28,581 nt of DNA from a virus, in IMG/VR virus record IMGVR_UViG_3300035670_001015, positions 1-28,581 of that record. The stretch is one strand, 5' to 3'. The first letter of the stretch is position 1; the number at the start of each line of letters is the position of its first letter. Positions 9,855 to 28,085 of this stretch are shown here, in pieces. The notes under the pieces are model-generated. The model had not been told where the DNA came from and searched no databases. It saw nothing but the letters and a program-made list of their open reading frames with translations. Made by a program: the position numbers and the translations under genes.

Positions 9855-10346
9855 TTGGCTATATACAGAAGAAAAACGATCATTATAAATGAACCTAGTT
9901 CATCTATAAACCAATATACCAAACCCATTGGTGTAACTATACCGTTTAATAACCCGAATGGTGTATTCTATCAAAGTTACACGAATAGAGTTCAAGTTTT
10001 TTCTAATGTAAAAAATCTTTTGCTTACTGCAAAAGGTGAACGATATATGCAGCCCGATTTCGGAACAGAATTAAAGTTCATTTTGTTTGAAAACATAACA
10101 AGTGAGGATTCATTTGCTGATAGAATACGTGGGGAAATTATCTCTGCAATATCAACGTGGCTTCCGTATCTTAGTGTAACTAATTTAGAAGTAAATCTTA
10201 ATATGACAGAAGATGGTAGAGTAAATGATCCATCTCATGCAATTGGAATAAAGTTGGAACTTCAAATCGTAGGAACGAACATATATTTGCCGATTCAGAT
10301 ATTTATATCTGACACAGGTAATTTGACCATTGAAGAGGCAGTATAA
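9855..10346 (+). CDS. 25: gp25-like baseplate wedge protein
   Basis: The protein has 163 aa and initiates at TTG 9855, with a good GGGAG site (9843-9847) upstream and no suitable ATG nearby. Residues 51-80 (NVKNLLLTAKGERYMQPDFG then TELKFILFEN) carry the gp25 fold signature: the helix entering a GxRxmxPxFGt turn, here GERYMQPDFGT. A C-terminal IGIKLELQIVG strand follows. gp25 forms the core bundle of the baseplate wedge with gp6 and initiates sheath assembly. The immediate downstream gp6-like gene confirms the context. Confidence 0.9.
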   Translation: MAIYRRKTIIINEPSSSINQYTKPIGVTIPFNNPNGVFYQSYTNRVQVFSNVKNLLLTAKGERYMQPDFGTELKFILFENITSEDSFADRIRGEIISAISTWLPYLSVTNLEVNLNMTEDGRVNDPSHAIGIKLELQIVGTNIYLPIQIFISDTGNLTIEEAV

Positions 10347-10348
10347 TA

Positions 10349-12244
10349 ATGGCGGACTTAGTAAAAAAAGATATACGGTATCTCTCACGAGATTTTCCAG
10401 CTTTAAAGCAGAATCTTATTGATTTTGCTAAGAACTATTTTCCAAATACATACCAAGATTTTAATGAGTCATCGCCTGGTATGATGTTCTTGGAAATGGC
10501 TGCATATGTTGGGGATGTCCTATCATATTATACAGATACAACACTTCAAGAATCATTGATACTCCAATCAACTGAACGTCAAAACATATTAAACATTGCA
10601 CAATCTCTTGGTTACAAACCAAAAACAAAGATAGCTGCCAACGTTAAGTTGGACGTTTTTCAATTAGTCCCTGCAATTGGAAGTGGTACAAATAACAGAC
10701 CAGATTATTCATACGCATTTGCAATAGAACCCGGTATGGTTGTTGCATCTGACAATAATAATGTAACTTCACAATTCAGAACGATTGATTATTTAGATTT
10801 CAAGCATAGTAGCAGTATAGATCCAACTGAAGTTTCTGTATTTGAATATGATGATATTTCTAAAGAACCAACGTATTATCTATTGAAAAAGTCTATAAAT
10901 GCAGTTTCTGGTGTAATAAGAACCGCAACTTATGATTTCAATGATCCAAAACCTTACGATAAGGTTTTTCTTGAAGATACAAATATAATAGATGTTTTAT
11001 ACGCAATTGATTCCGATGGGAACAAATGGTATCACGTGCCATACTTGGCACAAGATACAATATTTGAACCAACACCAAATATAGCAAGAAATGATAGACA
11101 ATTGTCTGTTTATAGAAACGAAACACCATATCTTCTTAAACTTAGAAAAGTATCAAGAAGATTTATAACAAGACAACTGGCTAATGGTTCATTGGAAATA
11201 CAATTTGGCGCAGGTGTGTCCGATCTTGATGACGAAATTCTAATACCAAACCCAGATTTAGTCGGTTCCTCACTCACTGGTATAGAATCAGCTGCATCGG
11301 TTGATATAGATCCATCGAACTTTCTTTATACAAAGACTTATGGTCTTGCACCTACCAATACAACTTTAACTGTTTATTACACACAAGGTGGTGGTATCAA
11401 AGATAATGTTCCGAGTGATACTATAAATCGTATTATTTCAAGAACAATATTACTGGATGAAACCGGATTAAATGACTCAATATATAATCAAACAATTGCT
11501 AGCTTAGCCGTCACAAACCCAGAACCAGCTTCTGGTGCAAAAGACGGAGAAGACATTAATGAAATCCGTCAAAATGCACTTGCTTATTTTGCCTCACAAA
11601 ATCGTGCGGTAACAAAAGAAGATTATATCATTAGGGCTTATAGTCTACCACAAAAATATGGTTCTATTGCAAAGGCATACATTACAAAAGACGATCAATT
11701 AACTCAAGAGTCAATTTATAACAGTGAAAGAATATCAAATCCTTTGGCATTGAATTTTTATGTACTAGGATATGATGCTGACAATAAATTAACTAAGATA
11801 AATGACGCAACGAAAGACAATTTAAAAACATATCTTGCATACCACAGAATCTTAACAGATGCAATTAATATCAAAGATGCATATATAATAAATCTTGGTA
11901 TTGAATTTGACATAATCACAATGCCAGATCAAAACGGCAACCAAGTAGTCCTCAGATGTATTGATAGACTAAAAAGATATTTCGATATTAAGAGATGGCA
12001 AATCAATCAACCAATTGTAATTAGTAACGTTTATACGGAATTGGATAAAGTAGAAGGAGTTCAAACGGTAGTAGATGTGAGATTTACAAATCTTACAGAC
12101 CCATCTATTGGGTACTCTCCTAACGCATATAATATCGATCAAGCAACAAAAGATGGTATTATTTTTCCATCTCTTGACCCATCTATTTTTGAAATAAAAT
12201 ATCCTGATAATGATATTATCGGTAGAGTGAGGGCATTCGGATGA
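10349..12244 (+). CDS. 6: gp6-like baseplate wedge protein (baseplate J family)
   Basis: The protein has 631 aa, close to T4 gp6 length. Residues 35-72 contain the hallmark YQDFNESSPGMMFLEMAAYV then GDVLSYYTDTTLQES. A beta-rich middle follows, then the conserved baseplate-J segment EDINEIRQNALAYFASQNRA then VTKEDY (about 403-430), and a C-terminal domain ending VYTELDKVEGVQTVVDVRF. Dimers of gp6 form the iris ring of the baseplate around the hub. It is separated from gp25 by two bases and overlaps the next gene by an ATGA. GAGG at 10335 serves as ribosome-binding site. Confidence 0.93.
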   Translation: MADLVKKDIRYLSRDFPALKQNLIDFAKNYFPNTYQDFNESSPGMMFLEMAAYVGDVLSYYTDTTLQESLILQSTERQNILNIAQSLGYKPKTKIAANVKLDVFQLVPAIGSGTNNRPDYSYAFAIEPGMVVASDNNNVTSQFRTIDYLDFKHSSSIDPTEVSVFEYDDISKEPTYYLLKKSINAVSGVIRTATYDFNDPKPYDKVFLEDTNIIDVLYAIDSDGNKWYHVPYLAQDTIFEPTPNIARNDRQLSVYRNETPYLLKLRKVSRRFITRQLANGSLEIQFGAGVSDLDDEILIPNPDLVGSSLTGIESAASVDIDPSNFLYTKTYGLAPTNTTLTVYYTQGGGIKDNVPSDTINRIISRTILLDETGLNDSIYNQTIASLAVTNPEPASGAKDGEDINEIRQNALAYFASQNRAVTKEDYIIRAYSLPQKYGSIAKAYITKDDQLTQESIYNSERISNPLALNFYVLGYDADNKLTKINDATKDNLKTYLAYHRILTDAINIKDAYIINLGIEFDIITMPDQNGNQVVLRCIDRLKRYFDIKRWQINQPIVISNVYTELDKVEGVQTVVDVRFTNLTDPSIGYSPNAYNIDQATKDGIIFPSLDPSIFEIKYPDNDIIGRVRAFG

Positions 12245-13413: not shown

Positions 13414-14690
13414 TTAGTTTAGTTGAGTTTCTTTTTCTTGAAGATATAAATCCACTGCAAGTGGAATCAATACTTGATACTTATCCAAATATATATTACA
13501 ATACCATAAACGAATTCTATGACTTTTTTAAGTCTAGGTCAGTTGTATTAAAAAAAGTTTCTAAAAATAACGCAGGTAGTACTTTATTAGAAAGATTAAA
13601 ATCATTTAAACAATCTTATGAATATGAAGTTGTTAGAAATTTTATAGACGAACAAAACAAAATTAAAAAATTACTTACAACAAATCCATCAGAGATTACT
13701 GTAATACAAAATACATTGGAAAGTGTATCTAGGTACAACTTAGATACTTTTGACTATTACATAGTTCGAAAACTAATAGATCCAACTGGCTCATCAAATG
13801 GAGTATTACCTTCTGAGCAATTACAGATTTTATTTGATTCATTATTAGAATCAAAAAACAAACTCTCTTTGAACGAATCTGGTTCTATCAATTTTGATAA
13901 AAATCTAAGGGATAATTTTGATAGAGCAATAACTTTTGAAAATCTTTATAAAAATAGTGGAAGATATAGATTACCAATATTGGATGAAAGATTTTACTTC
14001 AAAGATTTCGATTATATAATAGATAGAAACTTTCAATCTTTACCCGAAGCAGTTTCCGCTGAACTAAATCTTTTAGATAGACTTGCAAATGTAAGTGACA
14101 TTGATACATTCTTAACAGATTTGACCAAGCTAACAATAGAAAATGAAAATTCTATAACAGGATTAACTGCAAAGGTTCAAAGATTAGAAAAAATAATAGA
14201 AGTAAAACAAGAAGAAGTTCAGATGTATATTGATGCACAAATTGAACATGAAGGATTTATTGATACACTGGCAACTGAGACACTACAACAAGACGAAGAA
14301 TTAAGACAGAAAGACGAAACTATTAATCAGTTGAATGAAACAATATCAACTACATTATCTGAACTAGAGTCAAGTGTTGCTAATCAAATTAACAGTATTA
14401 ACTCTGCATTGGATTCACTTTCTCAAAATGTATCTTCACAGGGTGCAAGTAAAAATGCATCACAAGACAGCGAAATTGCACTACTAAAGACACAGATAGC
14501 CGCTTTACAAGCAACTATAAATTCACTGAGAAACAGTTCGAGTGGTGGAAGTACGGGTGGTGGCACCGGAATGGGTGGTGGCACCGGAACGGGTGGTTCA
14601 ATCGGAGGACCAACCAGTGCGACTGGTTCTGCATCAACTAATACTGGTGATGCTCGTGGTGCTGGTAATCCTGGAGGTAGAATAATTTAA
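13410..14690 (+). CDS. Coiled-coil virion protein with Gly/Ser/Thr-rich C-terminal tail
   Basis: This 426-aa protein begins in the stop of the previous gene (ATGA), with AAGG upstream. Residues 1-235 are mostly helical with no recognised fold. About 240-375 is a long coiled coil (TAKVQRLEKIIEVKQEEVQM ... IALLKTQIAALQATINSL). From about 376 the chain is a Gly/Ser/Thr low-complexity tail encoded partly by an 18-bp tandem repeat. Trimeric coiled coil plus flexible glycine tail is a common plan for tail-fibre or tail-tip connector proteins. A function as connector is inferred from architecture and location only. Confidence 0.78.
   Translation: MISLVEFLFLEDINPLQVESILDTYPNIYYNTINEFYDFFKSRSVVLKKVSKNNAGSTLLERLKSFKQSYEYEVVRNFIDEQNKIKKLLTTNPSEITVIQNTLESVSRYNLDTFDYYIVRKLIDPTGSSNGVLPSEQLQILFDSLLESKNKLSLNESGSINFDKNLRDNFDRAITFENLYKNSGRYRLPILDERFYFKDFDYIIDRNFQSLPEAVSAELNLLDRLANVSDIDTFLTDLTKLTIENENSITGLTAKVQRLEKIIEVKQEEVQMYIDAQIEHEGFIDTLATETLQQDEELRQKDETINQLNETISTTLSELESSVANQINSINSALDSLSQNVSSQGASKNASQDSEIALLKTQIAALQATINSLRNSSSGGSTGGGTGMGGGTGTGGSIGGPTSATGSASTNTGDARGAGNPGGRII
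14555..14599 (+). repeat. 18-bp tandem repeat encoding Gly-Gly-Gly-Thr-Gly-X
   Basis: GGGTGGTGGCACCGGAAT (14555-14572) is followed by GGGTGGTGGCACCGGAAC (14573-14590) and a partial third copy. It is in frame and locally GC-rich within an AT-rich gene. It lies in the low-complexity tail of the coiled-coil protein. Confidence 0.85.
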
Positions 14691-14692
14691 TT

Positions 14693-17600
14693 ATGGCAAA
14701 CTTTGAATACAAAAATATAGATGATATTTTAGAGTCAAATCTTCCAATCAGGGGAGTAAGAGTCCCAGTTGAAGATTTGAAACTTCTAAAAAAGACACCA
14801 CCTTTGGTCCCATCAGTTTCAACTGATGAAACTGTTGTTGAGTTTCATACATTTTTACCAAATGGTGCGTACTTAACATCGTTATATGATGTTGACGGTT
14901 GGAGAATAGAATCACCTTCGGCAAATTCTTCTGCACCTGTAATATCACTTGATTTACATAGAGATTTTGATAAATCAGAAAATCCACCTGGAACGTATAA
15001 AGTAGTTTATAACTTTTTTAGAAACATAATTGGTTCATTTGATGCACCAAAAATGTTTATATCAAAAGTTTCGCCGGATAGAACTGAATTAGAATTAACA
15101 TTAATAGATAGATCTTCTGTACAAGATCAAGAATTACTTGCAAACTTTGTTTTATCTTATTTAAAATCGAAAGAAATATTACCAAATGTAGTTTTAAACT
15201 TTGGTGAAAATAAAGTAGTAGATGTACTTAATCTTATATCGGATGGAAGTAAGTTTAGCTTCTTCGTAAAATTATACGAAGGACTACCAACCGATCTAGA
15301 TCTGTATTTTCAGTGTTGGGTTCAGGAGCAACTTCTTAAACCATTTATTGACACAATAAATCATATCCCAGAAGAAATACAAACACAGTTACCATCACTT
15401 AAAGGTCCTAATTTCGAAGTAGATTATGATTATTGGACAACAACGGAAACAGAATATAAATCTTGGAATGACATTCTATCTTCAAACGTACAGACTTCTC
15501 AAGAAATAATCGATAGGTATATATCATCTAGTAATTTACCCGTTCAATTAAACATAGATTACAGAGAATTTGAAAATTTCATATTCTATTCTTCGGCCGA
15601 GGATAGAGTCGATAACTTTGTTTATAAAGTAGAAATGATTGAACGATACAATAATGAACTTTCGTTATTGGAGACATTTACTGGATCAATATCTTCAAAC
15701 AAAATAAAAATAAAATCACTCCGAGATAAAACAATTTCTGGATTTGATAACTTTGAGAAGTGGTTATACTATGAAACAACTGCCAGTAATTATTACACGT
15801 ATCAACAAACGGCATCAATAACACCATATCCTAAATTTGAGGTAACTGGTAGTGATTACCATATTGCAACAAAGGAAGGGAAATTTAAATTATATCCAAG
15901 TGGCTCTAACATAGTAGATGATTGGTATAAGGATTTAATTACAAAGTCAGTAGATTATGATCTTAAAAATTACAATTCACTGAATAAGGCTATACCAGAA
16001 CATTTGTTAGACAGCGGAGATAACGAACAGTTTGTTACATTCGTTAACATGATAGGTCAACATTTCGATATAATTTACTTATACACAGATCATATTCTTA
16101 AAAAAAATCTTCGAGAAGAAAATCCAAAAGATGGTTTATCGCAAGATTTAATATATGAAGCAACTCGAAATCTCGGATGGACTCTATCAAGCGGAACACA
16201 GGCAAAAGACCTTTGGGAATATGCATTTGGTATTAGTGGTAGTGGTGATCCAATTTGGACTGGAAAAACAACAGTAGGTAGATACTTTACAAAGTCTGAT
16301 GAAGAACGAACAAAGGAAGTTTGGAGACGTATATTTAATAATCTTCCTTATATTTACAAATCAAAAGGTACTGCTCGTGGTGTAAAAGCATTGCTAGCTG
16401 CATATGGTATTCCACAGACATTACTTACAATTCGTGAATTTGGTGGCCCTGATAACGCCGATCTTGGATTAATACCAAGAGCAGAGTGGGAAAAACATAC
16501 ATACTATCTAAACTTTAAAGGAAGCTTCCCAACACCACCAACTCAGAGTTACATATCAATTCCGTGGGAAAAGGTAAGTGAGGTAGATGGTACATGGTCA
16601 TATCCTGACGCAATATCTTTCAGATGGAAGATGGAACCAGAAGATACCTATGCATACGGTTTAGATCCAGAACAAACACTTTTACAAAAAAATGTTGGAA
16701 GTCGAGTAGATTGGTTTGTCACTGTAAACAAAAATGGAACAGATCCAGAAAAAGGATCATTAACATTTTACATTGGCGACGGTACTTCTTATAAATCAGC
16801 ATCTATAACCGATGAGTATTTGTATGATGATGTTCCACTGAATCTTTTGATAAAAAGAAGTCAATTTAGTGATCTAACGTCAACAAATCAAACATACGAT
16901 CTTATTTTAAAAACTGCAAAATACGGTAAGATCGCAGTAGAGAGATCAGCGAGTGTAACTGTAAATGGTTCAGTTGATCCAGATGTAAACAGGGCATGGG
17001 TTTCTGACGGTACATTGTATATTGGTTCTGGTTCAAATCAACAGACAGACAAGATACTATCTGGTTCAGTTTTTGAATTGAGATATTGGTCTAACAATCT
17101 TAATACCAGCTCTTTCAATAATCATGTACTTGCACCAAGATCATACAATGGAAACACAGAGACATCCTCATACTATGATTTACAGGCACAGTTTAAGTTC
17201 TGGCAGAGATTTGATGTAGCCGTAACAACAAGTTTATCAAGTTCTCATCCAAATCAAAATCAAACATACTTTGAAACCTCTCCAAAGATTGCAACATTTG
17301 TTGGGTTTAATCAATTTTCTTTTGAATCCATAAACGAAAACTACTATATGGAAGTTGCCACTCTGGCAAACAACACACCATATGCAGAAAAGGTTCGTAT
17401 TGATTCTGGATCATTGATTGGAGGTCTATCTAAAGATAGAAGTGCTGAAATATCTGCATTTGATTTCTATTCCAATGATTCTGATAGACTTATGATCGCA
17501 TTCTCACCACAGGATGTTATAAATGAGGATATATACGAAAGTTTAGGTTATACACAGCTTGACGACTATATAGGAGAATATAGTAACATATCAAAGAATG

Positions 17601-19021
17601 AATATCCTAATTTAAAATGGTTATCGAGAGATTACTGGAAAAAATATTCTAACAGAAATGATTTTACTGCATATCTTAAATTGATTTCAGTTTTTGATTT
17701 TAGTGTATTTGATCAAATTAGACAAACATTACCTGCAAGAACTAATCCAATTCTTGGTGTAGTAATTCAACCAAATGTTCTTGAACGTTCAAAGGTTGGT
17801 GGGATAGGAAGAAATATTACGGCAGATAGTAACAACAGCATACCTTCAAATGAAATTTCTGCATCCGTATCATCTTTTGCAACATATAATGTAAAAGAAG
17901 GAACTATTTTAATTGGATTTGAAGAAAATGAAGGAGAAATCGATGATATTCAAGGCGATTATGATTTATATAAAGAAGAATTGCCTTCGGAATATATATT
18001 AAATTCAACAAAACAATTGCCTGTTTCAAAGTCATTGAAAATTGATTATACCTCAAAAGAATCATTTTTAAAGAAAGATAAATCTTTTAATTTAGAAAAT
18101 ACTCAAAAAGAAGTAGTAATTGATTTAGAATTAAGAAAAAAACCCGATGTTGAATATGTTGTAAAAGACAGTTTGATAGATGTAGGTATAAAACAATCAC
18201 CGGATATTGATTACACAACAAAAGACAGTTTGATAGATGTAGATATAAAACAATCACCGGATGTTGATTACACAACAAAAAACAGTTTGATAGATGTAGG
18301 CGTTATACAAACACCAAATGTTGACTATACAACAAAAGAAAGTCTAATAAATTTATCTATAACTGAAAAATTAAATATTTCGTATAATGTAAACGAAACT
18401 TCACTAACCTCAGAAACACCGAATAAATTTACAGATAACACTTACAACACAAAAGAAACAGATATTAATCAAACTTCAAGAGCTAGCTTTGAAACAACAT
18501 ATAACGGAGTTAATATATCAGTTGATGGTAATATCTTTTCATCAAATGCATCGTATAATAATATTGAAGACGACGTACAAATTGCAATAACTGCAAGCTT
18601 TACTAATGGTGGATTTAATATTATAAAATCCGGAAGTTTAAGTATTGATTACGGATATGGTAATGGTTGGGTAACTCAAAGTAGATTAGATAAAGTACAA
18701 AATTTTATTGAACAAATTTCATCATACAGAAGAGATGGATTTTATAATACTTACTATTTATACTATGATAGCTCAGCTCAAAAATTTTCAGGTATATATA
18801 GATCATCATCATTGACTGGTTCAGATATACTAAATCAAGAAAATTTGACGACTGGTCTAAGACACCATAGATTTTTGGGAAGTAAATTAACTGGACCTGA
18901 TGTAAATGTATCTACAACAAATACACCAGATGCCAAGGCGGTTGTTGAAATTTTCATAGTTGACTCAGAACAAATTTTCTACAACACAACAAATCGTGGT
19001 GGTAATTTAGAAACAAGATGA
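14693..19021 (+). CDS. Large tail/baseplate protein (1442 aa), tail-protein-I-like and LamG-like segments
   Basis: The N-terminal about 500 residues have no recognised fold. Around 530-590, GRYFTKSDEERTKEVWRRIF then NNLPYIYKSKGTARGVKALL and AAYGIPQTLLTIREFGG resemble the tail-protein-I/gpI-type segment found at baseplate-to-fibre junctions. About 596-825 is a concanavalin A/LamG-like jelly roll (DAISFRWKME ... SGSVFELRYWSNNLNTSSF). About 1000-1035 has IRQTLPARTNPILGVVIQPN then VLER. About 1150-1230 holds 19-residue tandem repeats, and the last 200 residues form another domain ending with VVEIFIVDSEQIFYN. By gene order it occupies the place of T4 gp7, but sequence similarity to gp7 is not evident. 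No strong ribosome-binding site sits close to ATG 14693. Confidence 0.85.
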   Translation: MANFEYKNIDDILESNLPIRGVRVPVEDLKLLKKTPPLVPSVSTDETVVEFHTFLPNGAYLTSLYDVDGWRIESPSANSSAPVISLDLHRDFDKSENPPGTYKVVYNFFRNIIGSFDAPKMFISKVSPDRTELELTLIDRSSVQDQELLANFVLSYLKSKEILPNVVLNFGENKVVDVLNLISDGSKFSFFVKLYEGLPTDLDLYFQCWVQEQLLKPFIDTINHIPEEIQTQLPSLKGPNFEVDYDYWTTTETEYKSWNDILSSNVQTSQEIIDRYISSSNLPVQLNIDYREFENFIFYSSAEDRVDNFVYKVEMIERYNNELSLLETFTGSISSNKIKIKSLRDKTISGFDNFEKWLYYETTASNYYTYQQTASITPYPKFEVTGSDYHIATKEGKFKLYPSGSNIVDDWYKDLITKSVDYDLKNYNSLNKAIPEHLLDSGDNEQFVTFVNMIGQHFDIIYLYTDHILKKNLREENPKDGLSQDLIYEATRNLGWTLSSGTQAKDLWEYAFGISGSGDPIWTGKTTVGRYFTKSDEERTKEVWRRIFNNLPYIYKSKGTARGVKALLAAYGIPQTLLTIREFGGPDNADLGLIPRAEWEKHTYYLNFKGSFPTPPTQSYISIPWEKVSEVDGTWSYPDAISFRWKMEPEDTYAYGLDPEQTLLQKNVGSRVDWFVTVNKNGTDPEKGSLTFYIGDGTSYKSASITDEYLYDDVPLNLLIKRSQFSDLTSTNQTYDLILKTAKYGKIAVERSASVTVNGSVDPDVNRAWVSDGTLYIGSGSNQQTDKILSGSVFELRYWSNNLNTSSFNNHVLAPRSYNGNTETSSYYDLQAQFKFWQRFDVAVTTSLSSSHPNQNQTYFETSPKIATFVGFNQFSFESINENYYMEVATLANNTPYAEKVRIDSGSLIGGLSKDRSAEISAFDFYSNDSDRLMIAFSPQDVINEDIYESLGYTQLDDYIGEYSNISKNEYPNLKWLSRDYWKKYSNRNDFTAYLKLISVFDFSVFDQIRQTLPARTNPILGVVIQPNVLERSKVGGIGRNITADSNNSIPSNEISASVSSFATYNVKEGTILIGFEENEGEIDDIQGDYDLYKEELPSEYILNSTKQLPVSKSLKIDYTSKESFLKKDKSFNLENTQKEVVIDLELRKKPDVEYVVKDSLIDVGIKQSPDIDYTTKDSLIDVDIKQSPDVDYTTKNSLIDVGVIQTPNVDYTTKESLINLSITEKLNISYNVNETSLTSETPNKFTDNTYNTKETDINQTSRASFETTYNGVNISVDGNIFSSNASYNNIEDDVQIAITASFTNGGFNIIKSGSLSIDYGYGNGWVTQSRLDKVQNFIEQISSYRRDGFYNTYYLYYDSSAQKFSGIYRSSSLTGSDILNQENLTTGLRHHRFLGSKLTGPDVNVSTTNTPDAKAVVEIFIVDSEQIFYNTTNRGGNLETR
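18146..18373 (+). repeat. Four 57-bp in-frame tandem repeats
   Basis: Units run at 18146-18202, 18203-18259, 18260-18316 and 18317-18373, each encoding 19 residues of the form DVDYTTKDSLIDVGIKQSP. Units 1-3 are very similar at the DNA level (shared AACAGTTTGATAGATGTAG or a one-base variant). Unit 4 has diverged, and degenerate relatives (IDYTSKESFLKK upstream; ISYNVNETSL downstream) flank the array. Confidence 0.9.
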
Positions 19022-19065: not shown

Positions 19066-19803
19066 ATGGGTTATTTAGATAACAGCACTATTACAGTAGA
19101 TGCAATTCTTACAAAAAGAGGAAGAGAACTTTTAGCACAAGGTAGAGGCTCTTTTAATATTACACAATTTGCTTTAGCAGATGACGAGATTGACTACGAT
19201 TTGTGGAACCCAGCACACCCACTTGGATCTGATTATTATGGTGTGGTAATTGAAAATATGCCAATTACAGAAGCAGTGCCAGACGAAACTCAATCAATGA
19301 AGTATCCATTAATTACTCTTCCTGTAAATTCTGTGGCTATACCATTTCTTCAAGCTAGTGTTACTTCACTAGAAATAAAACCATCAAATCCTAAATCAGT
19401 TGATATAGAAACTTTCTATTATGGTGGTGGAACTCCTGGTGGACCTAATAATGGTTTAAGTACAATTTTAAATTCTTCTGCTGGATATAATGTTACTCTC
19501 TTAGATTCAACGTATGTTACAATGGTAAATGAAGGTACAACTAACAATGGCGTTAATTCGAATGTTAGTTTGGTAGGAACAACCGGTACACTTGGTGCAC
19601 GAACAGCTACATCGGAGGTGGCAAATGTTACTCCACAGTCAGACTCTTCTAAGATTACAATTAATCTCCAAGCAAGGTCAAATGTTGCGAACATTGATGA
19701 TGGTCTATTAAAAGCTACAAAACTTATAATAACTGGAAACGAAACTGGTGGTAGAGTTGTAATCCCTATTACAATCCGTCGCGACGATTCAAGATCAGTA
19801 TAA
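19066..19803 (+). CDS. Putative virion structural protein (245 aa)
   Basis: ATG 19066 has the strongest ribosome-binding site in the late block (GAGGAG, 19053-19058). The N-terminus GYLDNSTITVDAILTKRGRE then LLAQGRGSFNITQFALADDE is followed by an acidic/aromatic stretch with LWNPAHPLGSDYYG and IENMPITEA. The middle is Gly/Asn-rich, and the C-terminal about 90 residues are Ser/Thr/Val-rich with an Ig-like feel (ATKLIITGNETGGRVVIPIT). I take it to be a virion protein from its location and composition; the exact role is unknown. It is the only gene of the late block with real gaps on both sides (44 and 37 bases), which may hold its own promoter. Confidence 0.75.
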   Translation: MGYLDNSTITVDAILTKRGRELLAQGRGSFNITQFALADDEIDYDLWNPAHPLGSDYYGVVIENMPITEAVPDETQSMKYPLITLPVNSVAIPFLQASVTSLEIKPSNPKSVDIETFYYGGGTPGGPNNGLSTILNSSAGYNVTLLDSTYVTMVNEGTTNNGVNSNVSLVGTTGTLGARTATSEVANVTPQSDSSKITINLQARSNVANIDDGLLKATKLIITGNETGGRVVIPITIRRDDSRSV

Positions 19804-19840: not shown

Positions 19841-21031
19841 ATGGTAATACAGTTAAATCAACCACTCGGTCTAAATGGCGGCGGTGGAGATTATGGTCTC
19901 AGACTGGCTTTTGAGCACACCCTTGCTGGCGTAGAACCAGACACACAAAAAAAATTGATAACAAAAGGACTTTGGGCAGCAAATCTCGGTGAGCTCTTGA
20001 CTTTTTTCACAAGCTCGGCCCAATCATCCGATTCAAAAACATATCACTATGAAATTTGGAGCTCCGCTTCTCTTGTATGTGGTGATGAAAATATGTTTTC
20101 TGTTGCATATGGTCACGTAGCAGGTTCTGGATCTATGGGTGTAGGTGGGCAAATTGGAGATACACCAACAAGAGCAATATACTCACAATATAAGACAATG
20201 CTTTTAGAAGGAGACCCAACTCTTCCTGCAGCAACTGGAGCGCCAACTAGATTTACATTGGCAAATGGTAGTTCAGTACAACATTTTTATGCCGTAAACA
20301 TATCAAGAGACAGATTTGAAGATAAACTCGATCCGGGTAATTTTGAATTGGTTCTTGCAAAGATGGATTCTGCCGCTTCTGCAAGCGCACTTACAATTGC
20401 GAGTGCAAATAACGTAATAAGACTCATAGATGATTCGGCGGACACAAATGATTCACTTGGATATGGTGGCCTGCCTTCAAATGTAAGAAATCTTGTAAGT
20501 GGTAGTATATCAGATGGCATATATAATCCATCCGCTCCTCATTATTACGGACTTGTTTACTCAGATAAGGGCGTTATTCTACTCGATGCAGATGTATTAA
20601 ATACCTCGGCAAGTTTAGGAACTGTAACTGGAAGTAACGTTATAGGAAATAATGCATTCAGACTTTATAAGTCAATTAGTGGTTCTGGTGCACAAGGTGC
20701 CGGATATGGATTCAGTGCAAGAAGTGTTAGTGTAAAGGATGTCACATATTATTATGTAAGAGTACCTGCTAGATTAGGTACATCACTATCAAATACAGAT
20801 GCAGGCGGAAATTCACTCCCATTGGCAATGTATTCAAATAACCCAACATATGTCAGTAGCTCTAATAACGTGCTTACAGATAAGTCATTTATAAATGATC
20901 CTACTGTCTATGTAACATCTATTGGTATGTATGATGACGAAGGTGAATTATTGGCAATTGCTAAGATGAGTAAACCAATTAAGAAGACATTAAATAGTGA
21001 ACTATCGGTAACAGTAAGATTAGAATACTAA
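19841..21031 (+). CDS. Paralogous putative tail-surface protein, copy 1 (396 aa)
   Basis: This is the first of five consecutive genes with one shared domain. A short Gly-rich N-terminus (about 35 residues) precedes the shared domain (about 38-396). Its blocks in order are TYHYEIW, MFSVAYGHVAGSGS (85-98), TRAIYSQYKTMLL, FYAVNISRDRFEDKLDPGNF then ELVLAK, VIRLIDDSAD, NLVSGSISDGIY, YYGLVYSDKGVILLDADVL, NNAFRLYKSISGSG, YYYVRV, NPTYVSSS, and the ending DPTVYVTSIGMYDDEGELLA then IAKMSKPIKK. The domain looks all-beta, with no signal peptide. GAGGT precedes the ATG by seven bases. It is probably displayed on the tail or baseplate periphery; this is inferred from location and the fibre-like neighbours. 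Confidence 0.82.
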   Translation: MVIQLNQPLGLNGGGGDYGLRLAFEHTLAGVEPDTQKKLITKGLWAANLGELLTFFTSSAQSSDSKTYHYEIWSSASLVCGDENMFSVAYGHVAGSGSMGVGGQIGDTPTRAIYSQYKTMLLEGDPTLPAATGAPTRFTLANGSSVQHFYAVNISRDRFEDKLDPGNFELVLAKMDSAASASALTIASANNVIRLIDDSADTNDSLGYGGLPSNVRNLVSGSISDGIYNPSAPHYYGLVYSDKGVILLDADVLNTSASLGTVTGSNVIGNNAFRLYKSISGSGAQGAGYGFSARSVSVKDVTYYYVRVPARLGTSLSNTDAGGNSLPLAMYSNNPTYVSSSNNVLTDKSFINDPTVYVTSIGMYDDEGELLAIAKMSKPIKKTLNSELSVTVRLEY

Positions 21032-21035
21032 AATT

Positions 21036-22091
21036 ATGATAGCAACATTTACACCATTTGTTGAGGATAGGGATGTTTTGGGTGGACATAAAGAAATCAT
21101 TACATCCCCGTTATGGACAGGAACACAGGCATCTTTAAAGTTTGTCTTCACAAGTTCGTATCAATCTTCTAATCAAAAACGATATTACTATGAAGTTTAT
21201 AATACCGCATCAACTGCAACTGGTGCAGAACCACAATTCAGTGTTGCCTATGGTGATACAAAAGGAAGTGGATCTGATAGAGGTGTTGGTAATATAGATG
21301 ATCTACCAACAAAAGCAATTTATTCTCAATATAAGCAGCTTTTGTTAAATGCTGGTACAAATTTGTTTACTTTTTCAAATGGTGAAACGTCTGAGTATGT
21401 ATATATTGTTAATATAAACAGATCAAGATATAAAGATAGAGTAGATACTAATAATTGGCAATTAAGTATTGGTAAACTTGATGCAACAACATCTGCATCT
21501 ATTTCAACGGGTGATGATATATTTACTCTTATCGATGATTCTGGTGCATCAACTATCGAATACACACAACAGGGCGGTAGAGTTTATAACGTCAGAAGCG
21601 GATCAATTACAGACGGTATATATACTGCAAGTTCAACTGTATGGGGACTATTTTATCCAGATAATGGTGTAATAGTTCTTAATGGTAATGCACTCGATGC
21701 ATCTGCTTCATTTGGAACTAATCGATCTCCATCAACAGGAAGTATAAATCAAAATAATGCATTTAGATTATTTACTTCAATAAGTGGTGCAATTGCATTT
21801 AATACATCATCTTACGCATTTCAAGGAAGAACCAGTGAAGTCGTATCTTCACAATACTTCTATGTTAGATTGTATAATGGAGAATACAATTATAGTATAA
21901 ATCCAACTTTTATAACTGGAAGTATTGCATCTGTAAAATATCAATCTATGATAACAGATCCAGTTGTTTACATAACAACAATTGGTCTTTATAATAATAG
22001 TCAAGAATTGTTAGCCGTTGCAAAACTCAGCAAACCAATTCAAAAAACATTTCAAAAAGAAGCAGTTATTCGCGTAAAAGTAGATTGGTAA
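21036..22091 (+). CDS. Paralogous putative tail-surface protein, copy 2 (351 aa, minimal form)
   Basis: This is the shortest member and nearly the bare shared domain: only about 18 residues precede IITSPLWTGTQASLKFVFTS. The same blocks follow in the same order: YYYEVYN, FSVAYGDTKGSGS (68-80), TKAIYSQYKQLLL, VYIVNINRSRYKDRVDTNNW, FTLIDDSGA, YNVRSGSITDGIY, WGLFYPDNGVIVLNGNALD, NNAFRLFTSISGA, FYVRLYNGEYNYSINPTF and DPVVYITTIGLYNNSQELLA then VAKLSKPIQK. It has no cysteine. No ribosome-binding site is clear before ATG 21036, four bases after the previous stop, so coupling to copy 1 is likely. Confidence 0.82.
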   Translation: MIATFTPFVEDRDVLGGHKEIITSPLWTGTQASLKFVFTSSYQSSNQKRYYYEVYNTASTATGAEPQFSVAYGDTKGSGSDRGVGNIDDLPTKAIYSQYKQLLLNAGTNLFTFSNGETSEYVYIVNINRSRYKDRVDTNNWQLSIGKLDATTSASISTGDDIFTLIDDSGASTIEYTQQGGRVYNVRSGSITDGIYTASSTVWGLFYPDNGVIVLNGNALDASASFGTNRSPSTGSINQNNAFRLFTSISGAIAFNTSSYAFQGRTSEVVSSQYFYVRLYNGEYNYSINPTFITGSIASVKYQSMITDPVVYITTIGLYNNSQELLAVAKLSKPIQKTFQKEAVIRVKVDW

Positions 22092-22100
22092 TAATTCCAT

Positions 22101-24779
22101 ATGGCTGTTCAAACTAAAATAAATGGCGTTGATGGAGTTCCAGTACAATCTTTTCCTATTGCATCTGGTGATTTATACATCGACCCTATAACTGGGAACG
22201 TACTTTCGGCAAATCAAGTTGCTGTTTCTTCCGAAATTAGAAGAAGTGGTGGTAACGAAGGGTTTGATGCGTTAGAATGTGTTGCATATAATTATCATAT
22301 TGGACAACCACAGGTAGTAAAAACAAACAACAGATTAGTAGATTCAGACAATAATGAACTCAATCTATCAAACTATCCAGACCACAAGAATCTAACTGGT
22401 ACTCAATGTTACCTTATCGCACCATTATATGAGTGTTGTTGGGTAAGACCTAATTTTGGAACAGGTCAATTAACATCAAATGGTGCAACATTAAAGGGAT
22501 GGGTATTAATAGCTAGATCTAAATCTGTTCTATCTTACGAAGAGTGCTATGATAATAATGGTAACGTAGGAAGAAGACCGGTATTAATACAGTATTTTTC
22601 GTATGATGATATACTAGGAGGTCCATATACACCAATAGCTGGTCCTAGTCAACCTGATAGAGCAGTTTCTCTTATACTACAACGTATAGGACCAAATGGA
22701 ACAGTACAAAACTTTACATACCCAGGAAATGGTCAGTTTTGGGGTAATTGTTATGGTGATTTTTCATTAGATTTTTTTGTAAATTGGTTATCATCAAATA
22801 ACGTAATATCTAATGTTACCGATTTACAATCATATAGAACTACGGGAACTTCCCCAAATGGTTCATATCCTCTCACAAATACAGTTACTGGTGCCAGTAT
22901 TGGTAGTCAACTAGGTATTGTTATTGAAGGTGATGAATGTAAATACGTTGGATCTTGTAAATTAACGAAAACAGAAGAACCACCAACAAAAGACCCAGTT
23001 TGTGTTGAAGAAATAACCGTTAATAATCTGGTACAATGGAGTCAATACTCTAGAAATGATTCATTTCAGATCGAACCGTCACTTCTTCAATTAGTAACAA
23101 TAGTTCCTGGTGACAATACACAACCAACATTACTGAATGATGGTAATAAAGTAAACTTATCTGGTTTTGGTTTTGGTTGTGAGATCGGTCAAATACAAAG
23201 ATTCCAACAAGTTTCTTATAGAGCATATCCAAAATTTGTATTTTGTAGATTATCAAATGGAACTATAAGAAGAACAATTCTGCCAGGTCAGTATATAATT
23301 GACTATAACAATCCAGAATTTTCTGGTGGATTTGAAGATAGAATTGTACAATCTTCTCGTGAATTCGATCCATCATGTTGCGACGGAGTTGCGAATGCAT
23401 TTTTAACAAGTAATGCAGAAGAACTAAGAAGATTCTCAGAAAGAGGTGTAGTTGTAAGTGTAATTGAATCTAGCAAAAGATTTGAATTACTAGACTCTTG
23501 TGGTTGTGAGGAAGTAGAAGTCACCGATTTAGGCTGTTTTTATAGAAATCTGACAAGAAGGGGACATTACAGTGTAATTCTAAAAGGTGATATAAAAGAT
23601 CCAAGAACATATACTGGTGTTAGAAGACCAGTAGTTGATGAAAGATGTCAAACAAGCGACGGTCCAGAAGTTTATAGACCTTTTGACAAAAAAAGAGATA
23701 TTATATTGAATAGAACAAAGTCTGGAACCACGGGTCTTTTCGGTGGTGATGACTCGATGCAGTGTTACTACACGAGTTCAACCAAACCAACTGCATCAAA
23801 TAATTACTACTATGAAGTAACAGATTGTGAAACATGTGGTAAAATTCCATACTTTGCAGTTGCATATGGTCATATAAGTGGTTCTGGTTCAATGTTTATT
23901 CAAGACGAGGAAACTAATAAAACATCAACCGATTCAATCTACTCTCAGTATCAATTGATTTGTTTAGAATCAACCAGAAGTATTTCCTCTGGTATTTTTG
24001 TACCAAAATTTGAATTTGTAAGTGCAAGTTCTATCATACAATCTGATGATATTTATGTAATAAACTTTAACAGAAATGGAATAAAAGACAAACTGGATGC
24101 AGGTAATTTTGAGATTAATTTGGGTTCTTTAAATGGAGATTCATTCTCAAACAACACCTTTACAGGAAGTAATGTTCAAATTGGAAGCGAAAACATATTA
24201 AGACTAATAGATGATTCAGATGACTATTCTGAAATAGAAACATGCGATGGTGATCCATTAATATCGTATAACATAGTATCTGGTTCTCTGGAAAATGGTA
24301 AATATGAAAATGCATCTGTGAACACATATGGTAAGGTTTATCCTAATCTTGGAATAGTCATACTACATCCAAAACGACTTAACGAGATACTTGAATTCAA
24401 CACCGTCACTGGTAGTAATATAAATGGTGACAATGCCTACAAATTGTTTACGTCTATAAGTGGTGCTGCCGCACCATATAGTAGTAGTAGAACGGACTCC
24501 TATTATCTCACTGCAAGAAATGTCAAATATAAAACAACGAGTCATTACTTTGTAAGAGCATATGCACCTTTGTTTAATTATAGTAATAATCCAACATTTG
24601 TATCTGGCTCCACAAATAGTGTTTTCGATAAGTGTTTTATCAAAAATCCACAAACTTACATAACATCAGTCGGTTTATATAATAGTAACAAACAACTTCT
24701 TGCAATCGCAAAATTAAGTAGACCTATAAAGAAAACATTTGAAACTGATTTACTAATTAAGATAAGATTGAATTGGTAA
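22101..24779 (+). CDS. Paralogous putative tail-surface protein, copy 3, with cysteine-rich N-terminal half (892 aa)
   Basis: Residues 1 to about 520 are unrelated to the paralogs and contain 17 cysteines (for example YECCWV, DPSCCDG, DSCGCEE), plus repeated aromatic and Gly/Asn segments. Residues about 530-892 are the shared domain: NNYYYEVTDC, YFAVAYGHISGSGSM, DSIYSQYQLICLE, IYVINFNRNGIKDKLDAGNF, ILRLIDDSDD, YNIVSGSLENGKY, YGKVYPNLGIVIL, DNAYKLFTSISGAA and NPQTYITSVGLYNSNKQLLA then IAKLSRPIKK. The cysteines suggest disulphides or metal binding in an exposed head domain. The N-terminal half is not recognised and may carry receptor binding. No clear ribosome-binding site precedes ATG 22101. 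Confidence 0.82.
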   Translation: MAVQTKINGVDGVPVQSFPIASGDLYIDPITGNVLSANQVAVSSEIRRSGGNEGFDALECVAYNYHIGQPQVVKTNNRLVDSDNNELNLSNYPDHKNLTGTQCYLIAPLYECCWVRPNFGTGQLTSNGATLKGWVLIARSKSVLSYEECYDNNGNVGRRPVLIQYFSYDDILGGPYTPIAGPSQPDRAVSLILQRIGPNGTVQNFTYPGNGQFWGNCYGDFSLDFFVNWLSSNNVISNVTDLQSYRTTGTSPNGSYPLTNTVTGASIGSQLGIVIEGDECKYVGSCKLTKTEEPPTKDPVCVEEITVNNLVQWSQYSRNDSFQIEPSLLQLVTIVPGDNTQPTLLNDGNKVNLSGFGFGCEIGQIQRFQQVSYRAYPKFVFCRLSNGTIRRTILPGQYIIDYNNPEFSGGFEDRIVQSSREFDPSCCDGVANAFLTSNAEELRRFSERGVVVSVIESSKRFELLDSCGCEEVEVTDLGCFYRNLTRRGHYSVILKGDIKDPRTYTGVRRPVVDERCQTSDGPEVYRPFDKKRDIILNRTKSGTTGLFGGDDSMQCYYTSSTKPTASNNYYYEVTDCETCGKIPYFAVAYGHISGSGSMFIQDEETNKTSTDSIYSQYQLICLESTRSISSGIFVPKFEFVSASSIIQSDDIYVINFNRNGIKDKLDAGNFEINLGSLNGDSFSNNTFTGSNVQIGSENILRLIDDSDDYSEIETCDGDPLISYNIVSGSLENGKYENASVNTYGKVYPNLGIVILHPKRLNEILEFNTVTGSNINGDNAYKLFTSISGAAAPYSSSRTDSYYLTARNVKYKTTSHYFVRAYAPLFNYSNNPTFVSGSTNSVFDKCFIKNPQTYITSVGLYNSNKQLLAIAKLSRPIKKTFETDLLIKIRLNW

Positions 24780-24780
24780 T

Positions 24781-26337
24781 ATGTCATTATCTTACATGAA
24801 TATTGCAGATCCTCAAACTTACGTTGAAGATGAAGCAGATAGGTTATTTAATGAACTTCTGAATGATATTAATTCTGAATTTTCTTCATCTTCAATATCT
24901 AGAATATTCTTTATAGAGGGTATAATTGATTTAGAAAATAAAATCAAGGATAGATATAAAAAAAATGTTGAATCAATAAATGCAAATGCTAATATGTTCT
25001 CTCGCGAAATTCTTATAGCGATTGAAGAACTTGTTAAAAAGAAGTATTTAAAGTATCTATCAAATCAGAAAAAATTTTTTGTTGGGGGAGGTAGAGTCGG
25101 CGACCCAACATCTGGGGTTTTTAGACCAGTATTAAATAGACACACATATCCATCTGTATCATCAACTTCATTTCCATCTGTTGAGTCTTTTGATGAATTG
25201 ATAGACAACATGATAAATGAATTGACGGAAGATGATAATCAAGTTTATAAGTTTAAACGATTATCATTTGTAAAAGATAAATCTGCTGTAATAAAGAAAA
25301 ACAGAACGGTTTCAATTTGGAATTGTGATGACGATGCACTGAATACATTTTTTACTGGTTCCAATGGTTTGAATAGAGATAAATACTATCTTTCTGTTTA
25401 CAATGAAAACCCAAACAATTACAATGCAAATCCACAATTTGACATATCATTTGGTCACATAGCTGGTTCTGGATCATCACTTCTTAGTGGAGAAATAGAT
25501 TTAATGCCATCAAAAACTATGTATCGTAAATACATGATGGAATGTGTTGGTGATGTAAGAAATGATAATGACAGATTTCCATTCAAAAATGGAGTTAATG
25601 GCGACTATGTTTATATAATCCAGTTAGATAGAGATCTATTGAAAGATAGATTGGATGCTGGTAATTTCGAGTTATTTTTAACTCCGTTATCTGGTAGTTC
25701 TAATCAGTTAATAAACACAGGAAGTAATGTACAAGTTAGTCAAACCTCAACTGAATTATTTAGTTTGATAGATGATAGTGGTGACTCAAAACAATCAACT
25801 TCTGACAGAGAAGATATACTTGAAGTTTACAACTTAGTATCTGGTTCAAAAAGAGATGGGGTTTATGCAGATGAAGATGCCAATGCATGGGGATTGGTTT
25901 ATCCTAAGTTGGGAGTAATTATATTAGATGGAACTGTTTTAGATCAATCATGTTCATTTAATACAGTCACTGCATCAATAGACGGTGATAATATATCAAA
26001 ACTGTTTCTATCACTGAGTGGATCTGCATCAGTAACAACTGCAAGAAATTACTCTGGTTCATTTTTTGCAAGATCAAACGAAAAAGTAGTGAACCAAACA
26101 TATTTTTGTAGAGTTAACACAGATGAATATAATCTTTCTTCCAATCCAAGTTATTCAAGTGGTAGTTTAAACGAACTAAAATTCGCTTATTTTAAAGACA
26201 ACCCTCATGCTTATATAACATCAATCGGACTTTATAATTCTAATAACGAATTGTTAGCTATTGGAAAATTAAAAAGACCAATTATAAAAAACAACAATAA
26301 GTCGTACATATTTGAAGTAAAAATGAGAATTAACTAA
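24781..26337 (+). CDS. Paralogous putative tail-surface protein, copy 4, with helical N-terminal extension (518 aa)
   Basis: The first about 160 residues are a different, mostly helical extension (DRLFNELLNDINSEFSSSSI ... ENKIKDRYKKNVESI), then a Gly/Pro/Ser linker (GGGRVGDPTSGVFRPVLNRH). Residues about 167-518 are the shared domain: YYLSVYNENP, FDISFGHIAGSGSS, SKTMYRKYMMECV, VYIIQLDRDLLKDRLDAGNF, LFSLIDDSGD, YNLVSGSKRDGVY, WGLVYPKLGVIILDGTVLD, LFLSLSGSA, TYFCRVN and NPHAYITSIGLYNSNNELLA then IGKLKRPI. The helical part could be the attachment module to the particle. The start is one base after the previous stop; the last base of the stop forms TAATG with the next gene. Confidence 0.82.
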   Translation: MSLSYMNIADPQTYVEDEADRLFNELLNDINSEFSSSSISRIFFIEGIIDLENKIKDRYKKNVESINANANMFSREILIAIEELVKKKYLKYLSNQKKFFVGGGRVGDPTSGVFRPVLNRHTYPSVSSTSFPSVESFDELIDNMINELTEDDNQVYKFKRLSFVKDKSAVIKKNRTVSIWNCDDDALNTFFTGSNGLNRDKYYLSVYNENPNNYNANPQFDISFGHIAGSGSSLLSGEIDLMPSKTMYRKYMMECVGDVRNDNDRFPFKNGVNGDYVYIIQLDRDLLKDRLDAGNFELFLTPLSGSSNQLINTGSNVQVSQTSTELFSLIDDSGDSKQSTSDREDILEVYNLVSGSKRDGVYADEDANAWGLVYPKLGVIILDGTVLDQSCSFNTVTASIDGDNISKLFLSLSGSASVTTARNYSGSFFARSNEKVVNQTYFCRVNTDEYNLSSNPSYSSGSLNELKFAYFKDNPHAYITSIGLYNSNNELLAIGKLKRPIIKNNNKSYIFEVKMRIN

Positions 26338-28085
26338 TGTCATTTCAAAAAGGAAACATAGTATCGCTTATTCGTAAAAGATTGAAACGTGGTGATTTTG
26401 AAGTAAAACCATTTCAAGCGAATAAACTTTGGAAATTTGCTAGCGATGATACCGAAACATTTGCAGGAAAATCAACGTTCTATGAAAACTTTGGAATGAA
26501 AATATACAGAGTTCTCTACCCAGAAAATGACTTATATTATGGTGCTGTTGCAAACATAAGTTCTTCACTTTATTCAAGAGTATTTACAACACAAAGTATA
26601 GATCCAAAAATGCTGTGGTATTCGTTAGACCACAAATATTACAACCAATATAAAAATGATGGTAATCCGACTTACTTAATTAGTTCTAATGCACAATTAA
26701 ATCTTTCTATAAGTGGATCTTTACTTTTATTACCACAAGACGTTTTTGGTGAAGGAGTAAAACCAAAGTCTTTTAAACTCACAAATTACAGTACAGATCC
26801 ATCACATTCATATTCAGTTGCTGATGATGGAAACGGAAATGTGATAGATTTATCTTTTGATACTGCAAAAATAATATCAAACGAAAATTGTCTTCTCTAT
26901 CTTGGATTTAATGAAAAGTACAGAGAATACGGTTTCAGAAATAAACAACTAGCTGGAGTTTATGACGGAAGTAATAGAATAAACAGTGTAGATTATATAA
27001 ACTCTAAAAAGATAAGATTTGCACCAGGAATTCCAACCACATCGCCCATTTCATCCAGTGGAACTTGTATGGTTAGTGAAGGTGGTTATCTTCATGTTAA
27101 AAATAAAGAAAACTTTGTACCGTTTCCTAAGAGTTCATTTGCAATAAGTTTCTGGATTAATGTTCCGCCATCACAATCTAATTACACCAACAGTTATAAT
27201 CATATTCTTAATAAGAATACAATGATATTAGATGATGGATTTAATAGAAGAATAGGAAAATATGATACTGTATTGGTAGAAAGAAGATCATCCAACTATC
27301 CATTTGATATTAAAATCACGAATAGTTCTGATCCGAATCCACATAGAATTATATTCGAACAATCATCGGCAGAAAATATCGTAACAGTCTCATCTTCAGC
27401 AATAACACCTGGAACTTGGTATCACGTTGTTTGTCAAAAAAGTGCTAGTATTTATAGTATTCATTTGAATGGAACTATTGATGCAAGTTCTAGTTTTGAA
27501 ATGACAAAAAATGTTTCAAATGATTATGAGATGTATATTGGTGGTAACGGTACAAATACTGGAATGATTTCTGCATCCATTGATGAGTTTAGAATCTATA
27601 ATACTGGATTAACACAAACTCAAATTTCATCATTATCTGATAATTCTTATGGACTAGGATATGCATATCAAAGTAACGTTATTGGAAACATATTTTACAA
27701 GTCTGGTGAAATAGTTATATCCGATCCAAGACCTAAATATGCAAATGCAATACTTGGTAGAACAGGAAGTTTTGATTATGGTGGAAGAACACACGGATTT
27801 AGTGGCGAATTTAGAAGTACAACAACATTTTACGAATATCAAGTAATATGTAAAATTCGTAAAAAAGAATTCAATCTATCTCAAAACATCTCGCTCAGAG
27901 AGGGTGGGGATCCTAATTCTTATAGACTACGCAATTTTGTTACTAGTTCACATTTTAATCCATATATTACAACTATTGGATTGTATGACGATAATGATGA
28001 ATTGTTGGCAATAGGTAAACTTGCATCACCACTTGAAAAAAGAGATGACGTAGATATGAACATCATTGTTAGATGGGATATATAA
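26337..28085 (+). CDS. Paralogous putative tail-surface protein, copy 5, divergent, with inserted LamG/ConA-like domain (582 aa)
   Basis: This is the most divergent member. Residues about 20-175 match the first half of the shared domain (FGMKIYRVLYPEND, YYGAVANISSS, HKYYNQYKNDG, LLLLPQDVFGEGVKPKSFKL, YSVADDGNGNVID). The second half resumes at about 445 (VIGNIFYKSGEIVISD ... NPYITTIGLYDDNDELLAIG then KLASPLEK). Between them, about 183-433, lies a LamG-type concanavalin jelly roll: CLLYLGFNE, SSFAISFWINV, GTWYHVVCQKSASIYSIHLN and SASIDEFRIYNTGLTQTQIS. LamG domains in phage fibres commonly bind glycans. The insertion splits the shared domain at a loop after the DDG turn. The gene overlaps the previous stop (TAATG). 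Confidence 0.82.
   Translation: MSFQKGNIVSLIRKRLKRGDFEVKPFQANKLWKFASDDTETFAGKSTFYENFGMKIYRVLYPENDLYYGAVANISSSLYSRVFTTQSIDPKMLWYSLDHKYYNQYKNDGNPTYLISSNAQLNLSISGSLLLLPQDVFGEGVKPKSFKLTNYSTDPSHSYSVADDGNGNVIDLSFDTAKIISNENCLLYLGFNEKYREYGFRNKQLAGVYDGSNRINSVDYINSKKIRFAPGIPTTSPISSSGTCMVSEGGYLHVKNKENFVPFPKSSFAISFWINVPPSQSNYTNSYNHILNKNTMILDDGFNRRIGKYDTVLVERRSSNYPFDIKITNSSDPNPHRIIFEQSSAENIVTVSSSAITPGTWYHVVCQKSASIYSIHLNGTIDASSSFEMTKNVSNDYEMYIGGNGTNTGMISASIDEFRIYNTGLTQTQISSLSDNSYGLGYAYQSNVIGNIFYKSGEIVISDPRPKYANAILGRTGSFDYGGRTHGFSGEFRSTTTFYEYQVICKIRKKEFNLSQNISLREGGDPNSYRLRNFVTSSHFNPYITTIGLYDDNDELLAIGKLASPLEKRDDVDMNIIVRWDI

Follow-up and report, generated by a model that had tools for sequence, protein, structure and literature searches.

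A cysteine-rich copy of a duplicated phage module and the paired gain and loss of its cysteines

Introduction

The viral sequence analysed here, called the window, comprises 28,581 nucleotides, positions 1 to 28,581 of IMG/VR record IMGVR_UViG_3300035670_001015. It carries five adjacent genes, copies 1 to 5 (c1 to c5), that share all or part of a module, and the third of these has an N-terminal half crowded with cysteines. What do so many cysteines do in a protein that its gene neighbourhood links to a phage tail? A preliminary description of the window found the N-terminal half unrecognised, offered metal binding or late oxidation as explanations and suggested a new adhesin head. We think it probable that c3 is a virion protein whose N-terminal half is a covalently stapled, fast-evolving, beta-rich head facing the host or the surroundings. 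The case rests principally on the way in which cysteines have been kept, gained and lost among its relatives.

Results

Cysteines are the best-kept residues of a fast-diverging protein

Translation of the open reading frame (ORF) confirmed that residues 1-523 of c3 contain 17 cysteines, at positions 60, 103, 112, 113, 149, 217, 280, 286, 301, 360, 382, 426, 427, 467, 469, 479 and 516, with CC pairs at 112-113 and 426-427 and a CGC at 467-469; it also bore out the zero to four cysteines given for the neighbouring copies (Table 1). In the 24 other ORFs counted in the window there are 36 cysteines in 8283 amino acids (0.43%), and the binomial probability of at least 17 in 523 residues, set against those ORFs, is 3e-10. 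The enrichment had been placed in the N-terminal half. That half does hold 17 cysteines, but six more (C555, C576, C579, C621, C715 and C845) lie in the C-terminal module beyond a boundary at about residue 530, so the whole copy is enriched; in the other copies the module has no such wealth of cysteines. The conservation of cysteines across relatives is more telling than the probability of their enrichment.

By its place between copies 2 and 4, c3 belongs to the orthologue group of WWT39515.1, a hypothetical protein of Microcystis phage Mel-JY01 (954 amino acids, 21 cysteines) that is its syntenic orthologue. The c3 module is closest to that of Mel-JY01 copy 3 and carries C555, C576, C579, C715 and C845. 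After removal of near-identical proteins, 42 of 62 orthologues were kept, and five from a second scan brought the alignment to 47 rows. Mean pairwise identity was 0.18 and 0.21 in the two N-terminal domains and 0.56 in the module. Over residues 54-530 the 17 cysteines of c3 were conserved at 65% on average, against 36% for tryptophan, 22% for tyrosine and 19% for glycine, and cysteines made up seven of the ten positions conserved at 80% or more. The only invariant columns before residue 530 were the start methionine and cysteines: C360, C427 and C516 in alignment A2, and C360, C426, C467 and C516 in alignment A3. Both C360 and C516 were present in 47/47 rows; C427 was present in 42/42 rows of the first alignment, and in 47/47 of the second if two split columns are merged (39 + 8). 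Among the module cysteines, C576, C579, C715 and C845 were each found in 45/47 orthologues, C555 in 44/47 and C621 in 10/47.

The comparison with Mel-JY01 shows the same disparity in a single pair. The two phages share the five-copy gene order and their copy 3 modules are 43% identical; domain 1 matches at only 33 of 198 positions, yet all eight of its cysteines are kept. Otherwise the Mel-JY01 N-terminal half is nearly unrecognisable: it lacks C467 and C621, and a 429-481 pair replaces the 426-479 pair of c3. C467 was lost alone in Mel-JY01, and in loci L101 and L112 it was lost with all five conserved module cysteines; it may or may not bond to the module. The orthologues at L101 (3480-6185) and L112 (2874-5993), without C467 and those five module cysteines, keep ten cysteines before the module, and their losses are a natural test of whether the N-terminal and module sets are separate.

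Cysteines come and go in twos

Counts for pairs of columns, in c3 numbering, are given as rows with both cysteines, one of them, or neither. Domain 1 was realigned alone over 42 rows, with five excluded: L057 and L058 lack most of the domain, L060 and L063 were judged unalignable, and L095 was not mapped. Pairs were placed on a tree of the module from which the cysteine columns had been removed.

Several pairs of columns behaved as units. With no hand edits, 429-481 and 454-477, both absent from c3, each gave 9/0/38 in 47 rows, 426-479 gave 8/0/39 in 47, and 60-113 gave 39/0/3 in 42. The pair 103-280 gave 26/0/16 of 42 with three neighbouring columns pooled and rows L045 and L054 scored by eye, 24/2/16 without those two rows and 19/7/16 from one column alone. 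For 112-149 the count was 31/1/10 with L037 scored as having C149, as in alignment A5, and 30/2/10 raw; 382-469 gave 41/0/6 of 47 by an ungapped reading of six rows. The non-partner control of 429 with 477 gave no row with both, 18 mixed and 29 with neither. An extra cysteine beside C427 was always accompanied by exactly one extra at 477, 479 or 481, three alternatives found in different lineages.

On the tree, the members of each pair changed equally often, except for 112 (four changes) and 149 (three): 103 and 280 changed five times each, 429 and 481 three times, 454 and 477 three times, and the members of 426-479 and 382-469 once each. In 200,000 simulated trials on this tree, no two independent characters with five changes had identical patterns; exact agreement arose at frequencies of 0.00011 and 0.00018 with three changes, 0.0016 with two and 0.022 with one. 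The three-change pairs stay just below 0.05 after correction for the 231 column pairs compared. For 60-113 a better argument than its pattern comes from eight rows of one clade, where C60 and C113 are the sole survivors of the eight domain 1 positions of c3 (four of the rows have one further cysteine).

These patterns point to putative bonds 103-280, 112-149 and 60-113 in domain 1 of c3, and 426-479 and 382-469 in domain 2. A further domain 1 bond, 217-286, is the weakest, and likely by elimination only. No partner was assigned to C301, C360, C427, C467 or C516. A 217-621 bond was considered, the two columns being paired in the first alignment, and rejected when realignment showed C217 without C621 in Mel-JY01 and others. 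The number of cysteines in domain 1 was even in 33/42 rows, a count that is not independent of descent, and over the whole protein no clear even or odd rule was seen. Because cysteines were gained and lost in twos, repeatedly, two-cysteine bonds explain the N-terminal half better than a four-ligand metal site does. Of the two chemistries first proposed, it is the late oxidation to disulfides that the shared gains and losses favour.

The N-terminal half has no recognised relative outside its own family

Neither Pfam nor PHROG yielded a family for c3 at E up to 1, and its best match among PDB sequences had an E of 0.17. When 37 domain 1 members were compared with PHROGs, families were matched by one or two members only, the best (E 0.0017) being of unknown function; a domain 1 profile found nothing better than E 0.71 among PDB sequences. 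AlphaFold2 modelled domain 1 (residues 54-292) as a beta-rich structure with a predicted local distance difference test (pLDDT) score of 80 and a predicted template modelling (pTM) score of 0.79. Foldseek searches of PDB and BFVD found no match to this model with an E of 0.001 or lower. Its best VIA-align Z was 2.3 (41 residues, root-mean-square deviation (rmsd) 3.4), below the Z of 7-8 that the tool gives as typical even of models that lack a clear match. Fold searches with the whole c3 model gave nothing usable. The domain 1 model hints at a new fold, although a known fold may have been missed. The description of this half as unrecognised thus holds for Pfam, PHROG, PDB sequences and folds, with no known enzyme or lectin among the matches.

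The N-terminal half alone or the whole of c3 matched nothing in the viral contig collection, the N-terminal half had no match in the phage collection at E up to 1, and the Mel-JY01 N-terminal half matched only itself. Uncut cysteine-rich relatives have between 377 and 1256 amino acids ahead of the module, so extra domains can sit at the region of the c3 leader. At L112 the c3 orthologue has an ASH/HYDIN-like immunoglobulin (Ig) domain before its cysteine domains (best E 4e-7, below curated cut-offs), and the L045 protein of copy 4 type (11112-13727) resembles this Ig-bearing protein by eye. The 484 kb phage record L182 (LR756508.1) has an ORF at 21927 of 305 amino acids with 17 cysteines (5.6%) and without the module.

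Copy 3 has a fixed place in the gene order

Relatives were fetched through a profile of the module, which found at least 583 in IMG/VR over the first 600 candidate stretches, and the analysis used the best 80. At 60 of the 80 loci the matching protein had at least four cysteines before the module (several are fragments at contig ends), and in the remaining 20 it had none. Module ORFs of at least 250 amino acids, whole or part, numbered 482 over 159 sources, with some contigs represented twice. A loose rule for cysteine-richness was passed by 91 of them; the other 391 had a mean of 2.0 cysteines and a maximum of 11.

Gene order was compared in 82 loci (the 80 from IMG/VR, Mel-JY01 and the window), with copies named by best BLAST match and a starred copy 3, c3*, defined by at least nine cysteines and more than 500 amino acids. 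The order c1 c2 c3* c4 c5 was found in 37/82 loci. Another 23 had c3* with fewer neighbours or a second starred copy, and 15 had a two-gene form, c2 c5, in which c2 is the full-length copy. The other seven had no starred copy, two of them having an unstarred c3. In all 60 loci with c3* the order c2-c3-c4 was unbroken, though five of these show no neighbour.

Seven phage records with a relative were found by tblastn, and the named relatives infect Microcystis, Flavobacterium and Rhodothermus. Among these relatives the cysteine-rich copy was seen in Mel-JY01 alone; the stretches of immuto and RM378 that were read lack it. A scan of genome contigs found six loci, where the module-bearing ORFs read had 0-4 cysteines. 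The closeness to Mel-JY01 suggests a cyanobacterial host for the phage of the window. A literature search covering titles and the beginnings of abstracts, with few subscription papers, found no publication on the c3 family and none on Mel-JY01.

The neighbourhood is that of outer baseplate and fibre genes

Table 1. Positions in the window of copy 3, its parts, the other module copies and two baseplate genes
Feature	Positions	Strand	Description
Copy 3 (c3)	22101..24779	+	892 aa, 23 Cys; the Cys-rich copy
c3 leader, residues 1-53	22101..22259	+	Predicted poorly, mostly pLDDT under 50
c3 domain 1, residues 54-292	22260..22976	+	8 Cys, beta-rich model
c3 domain 2, residues 293-530	22977..23690	+	9 Cys
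c3 duplicated module, residues 531-892	23691..24776	+	Six Cys
Copy 1 (c1)	19841..21031	+	396 aa, 1 Cys; little besides the module
Copy 2 (c2)	21036..22091	+	351 aa, 0 Cys; module alone
Copy 4 (c4)	24781..26337	+	518 aa, 4 Cys; module preceded by an N-terminal part of its own
Copy 5 (c5)	26337..28085	+	582 aa, 4 Cys; Laminin_G_3 and last module part
Baseplate wedge protein (gp6-like)	10349..12244	+	72% identical to Mel-JY01 counterpart; 1 Cys
Baseplate wedge protein gp25	9855..10346	+	0 Cys

The module of about 350 amino acids is common to copies 1-4, and copy 5 has only its last 85 or so. Residues 261-431 of copy 5 form a Laminin_G_3 (ConA-like lectin) domain (Pfam E 5e-16), making this a likely carbohydrate-binding tail protein. 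Four genes separate the gp6-like wedge gene from copy 1. Flavobacterium phage immuto has two module genes, one full and the other partial, flanked by the wedge gene on one side and by genes with the annotations tail fiber and tail spike on the other. Since the copies in the window follow gp25 and gp6, and the order in immuto is alike, the cluster occupies the usual place of outer baseplate and fibre genes.

Two proteins encoded in the interval from the wedge genes to the copies, of 1442 (14693-19021) and 245 amino acids (19066-19803), have no clear family match; the position of the larger one would suit a wedge protein like gp7. The gene at 12241-13413 has weak N-terminal similarity to CBM96 (E 2e-5; 24.9 bits, cut-off 26). 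Elsewhere in the window, 1773-2774 encodes a homologue of the UV endonuclease UvdE (Pfam E 2e-63), a light-damage repair gene.

T4 gp8 was considered as the parent of the module and rejected. It is of similar size, its gene likewise follows gp6 and gp7, and there was one weak structural match (9f4a, Z 2.4, rmsd 2.5, 68 residues aligned), but profiles gave no support: hhalign of the module against T4 gp8 returned a probability of 0.1%, and a Pfam scan of 17 module members found five families, with no phage gp8 family among them. The module profile had chance matches only among PDB sequences (best E 0.62).

Discussion

Rapid sequence turnover around a kept cysteine frame, putative bonds that relocate, the fixed gene place and the duplicated module are together consistent with a stapled head that is anchored to the baseplate. 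In such an arrangement c3 would be part of the virion in a contractile-tailed phage, the module at its C-terminus would probably hold it at the periphery of the baseplate, and most cysteines of its N-terminal half would bond within the chain. The bonds would form late in the cell or after lysis, and would hold the fold while the remaining sequence changes fast. Divergence of this kind is expected of a part exposed to host surfaces or the open medium. The suggestion that the N-terminal half is an adhesin head, which would bind a host or another surface, is plausible given the fast divergence, the place after the wedge genes and the lectin-bearing neighbour.

A number of observations weigh against this interpretation. 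The pairs were picked after the data had been seen, from the 231 compared. C555 matches C60 and C113 exactly (all three are lost in L024, L101 and L112) and C576, C579, C715 and C845 all match each other through one event, with no bond claimed in either case; the pattern shared with C555 leaves 60-113 insecure by pattern. As aligned, the columns put the loss at 467, giving 41/6/0 for 382-469 and 38/3/6 for 382-467. The single tree change of 426-479 is one that chance gives to about 2% of pairs, and neither the two-change 60-113 nor the one-change pairs stand alone after correction. The best pair, 103-280, depends on hand pooling, and the independent rows are too few for a sign test to reach 0.05. 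The bond partners are proposed from sequence patterns, and c3, seen as a gene, is a putative component of the particle. The model of the whole protein is poor (pLDDT 66, pTM 0.41). Finally, the phages carry the thioredoxins described below and no DsbA was found in five records, so no oxidising helper was found.

It is improbable, in our estimate, that some of the cysteines, above all C576/C579 with C715 and C845, bind zinc or an iron-sulfur cluster, the N-terminal half then being part disulfide and part metal site. These four module cysteines are each present in 45/47 rows and vanish jointly in L101 and L112, as the ligands of one site would, and the spacing of C576 and C579 in c3 is CxxC. L101 and L112 form one clade, however, which makes this a single loss event, and it takes C467 and C555 as well; as the four vary only together, either two disulfides or a metal site would account for them. 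Mel-JY01 has CxC in place of CxxC, histidine is scarce in c3 (six in 892 residues), and the N-terminal cysteines change in twos, several times, unlike a four-ligand site. Metal binding is not supported for the N-terminal half and is possible for the four module cysteines.

We give a similarly low weight to an interchain lock, in which the cysteines tie c3 to itself or to neighbouring proteins of the baseplate or fibres, and the tail is released when they are reduced at the host surface, as proposed for Agrobacterium phage Milano. The odd total of 23 means that at least one cysteine lies outside intrachain bonds, free or possibly bonded to another chain, and paired gain and loss would also be seen if each subunit of a c3 oligomer supplied one partner. 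There is precedent in cyanophage Pam3, whose fibres are disulfide-bonded to wedge proteins according to a citing paper, and in Milano, where some bonds must be reduced before contraction. Against a lock stand the few potential partner cysteines nearby (Table 1) and the occurrence of the paired positions within one chain type; in addition, neither Milano nor Pam3 is among the seven phage records with a relative, though their presence in the collection is unconfirmed. Least likely is an ordinary fast-drifting structural protein with free inherited cysteines, its matched patterns due to shared ancestry and alignment choice: kinship does make single-event matches likely (2% per pair), C555 matches C60 and C113 without a proposed bond, and some of the states were scored manually. 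Free cysteines, however, should vanish as fast as the rest (about 20% identity), yet cysteine is the best-kept residue, and two pairs agree through three changes apiece with no manual scoring.

The stapled-head interpretation has relatives in known systems. The view that disulfides are unusual in phage tail proteins was too strong, since disulfides cross-link the tails of Milano and Pam3. In Milano all tail components are cross-linked, with disulfides among the baseplate and receptor-binding proteins, and some of the bonds have to be reduced for contraction (PMC10811340). Like Milano, the phage of the window would combine a contractile tail with a cysteine-rich tail protein (23/892 = 2.6% in c3; 2.1% in Milano structural proteins); unlike in Milano, one copy of a duplicated gene bears the cysteines and the putative bonds are intrachain. 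Pam3 is likewise a myophage and has disulfides at the joint of baseplate and fibre, as described in a paper that cites the Pam3 work (PMC11821841); these bonds are interchain ones of a fibre, unlike those proposed for c3. Agrobacterium phage 7-7-1 has a disulfide network in its capsid, not its tail, and four of its capsid proteins contain 2.58% cysteine, comparable to c3 (PMC12796354). The tail hubs of crAss001 are a further precedent for disulfides in phage particles. Phage-tail disulfide networks are already known through Milano and Pam3, and c3 would be a variant of such networks.

Thioredoxins with WCxPC active sites were found in four of five phage records searched; we take these to be of the ordinary reducing type. 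DsbA was not found in five records (8/14 controls matched), and no Erv1-type oxidase was found in 16 records in a search where no control matched, making it uninformative. The WCxPC thioredoxins neither help nor contradict late bond formation. The 177 kb contig of L025 encodes two thioredoxin-fold proteins (loci L087 and L088) with hydrophobic signal-like N-termini and the motifs WCPPC and WCKPC, which resemble the periplasmic TlpA/ResA types, as well as a small thioredoxin.

A bolder and rather doubtful proposal is that c3 represents both a new fold and a new strategy of tailed phages, a baseplate adhesin head built on a shifting disulfide frame around which nearly everything else is replaced. 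Its evolution would then be like that of the cysteine-stapled proteins that animals secrete, and the odd cysteine would be a possible redox-sensitive interchain link. The phage group concerned is widespread, has a Microcystis phage among its members and is for the most part uncultured. As particles are built in the reducing cytoplasm, a conserved skeleton of cysteine pairs raises the matter of when and how its bonds form and of control of adsorption by the redox state of the medium or the host surface. The family offers named cysteine pairs and one isolated phage, Mel-JY01, in which to pursue these points; should the fold prove to be new, the family would also provide a stable, variable scaffold.

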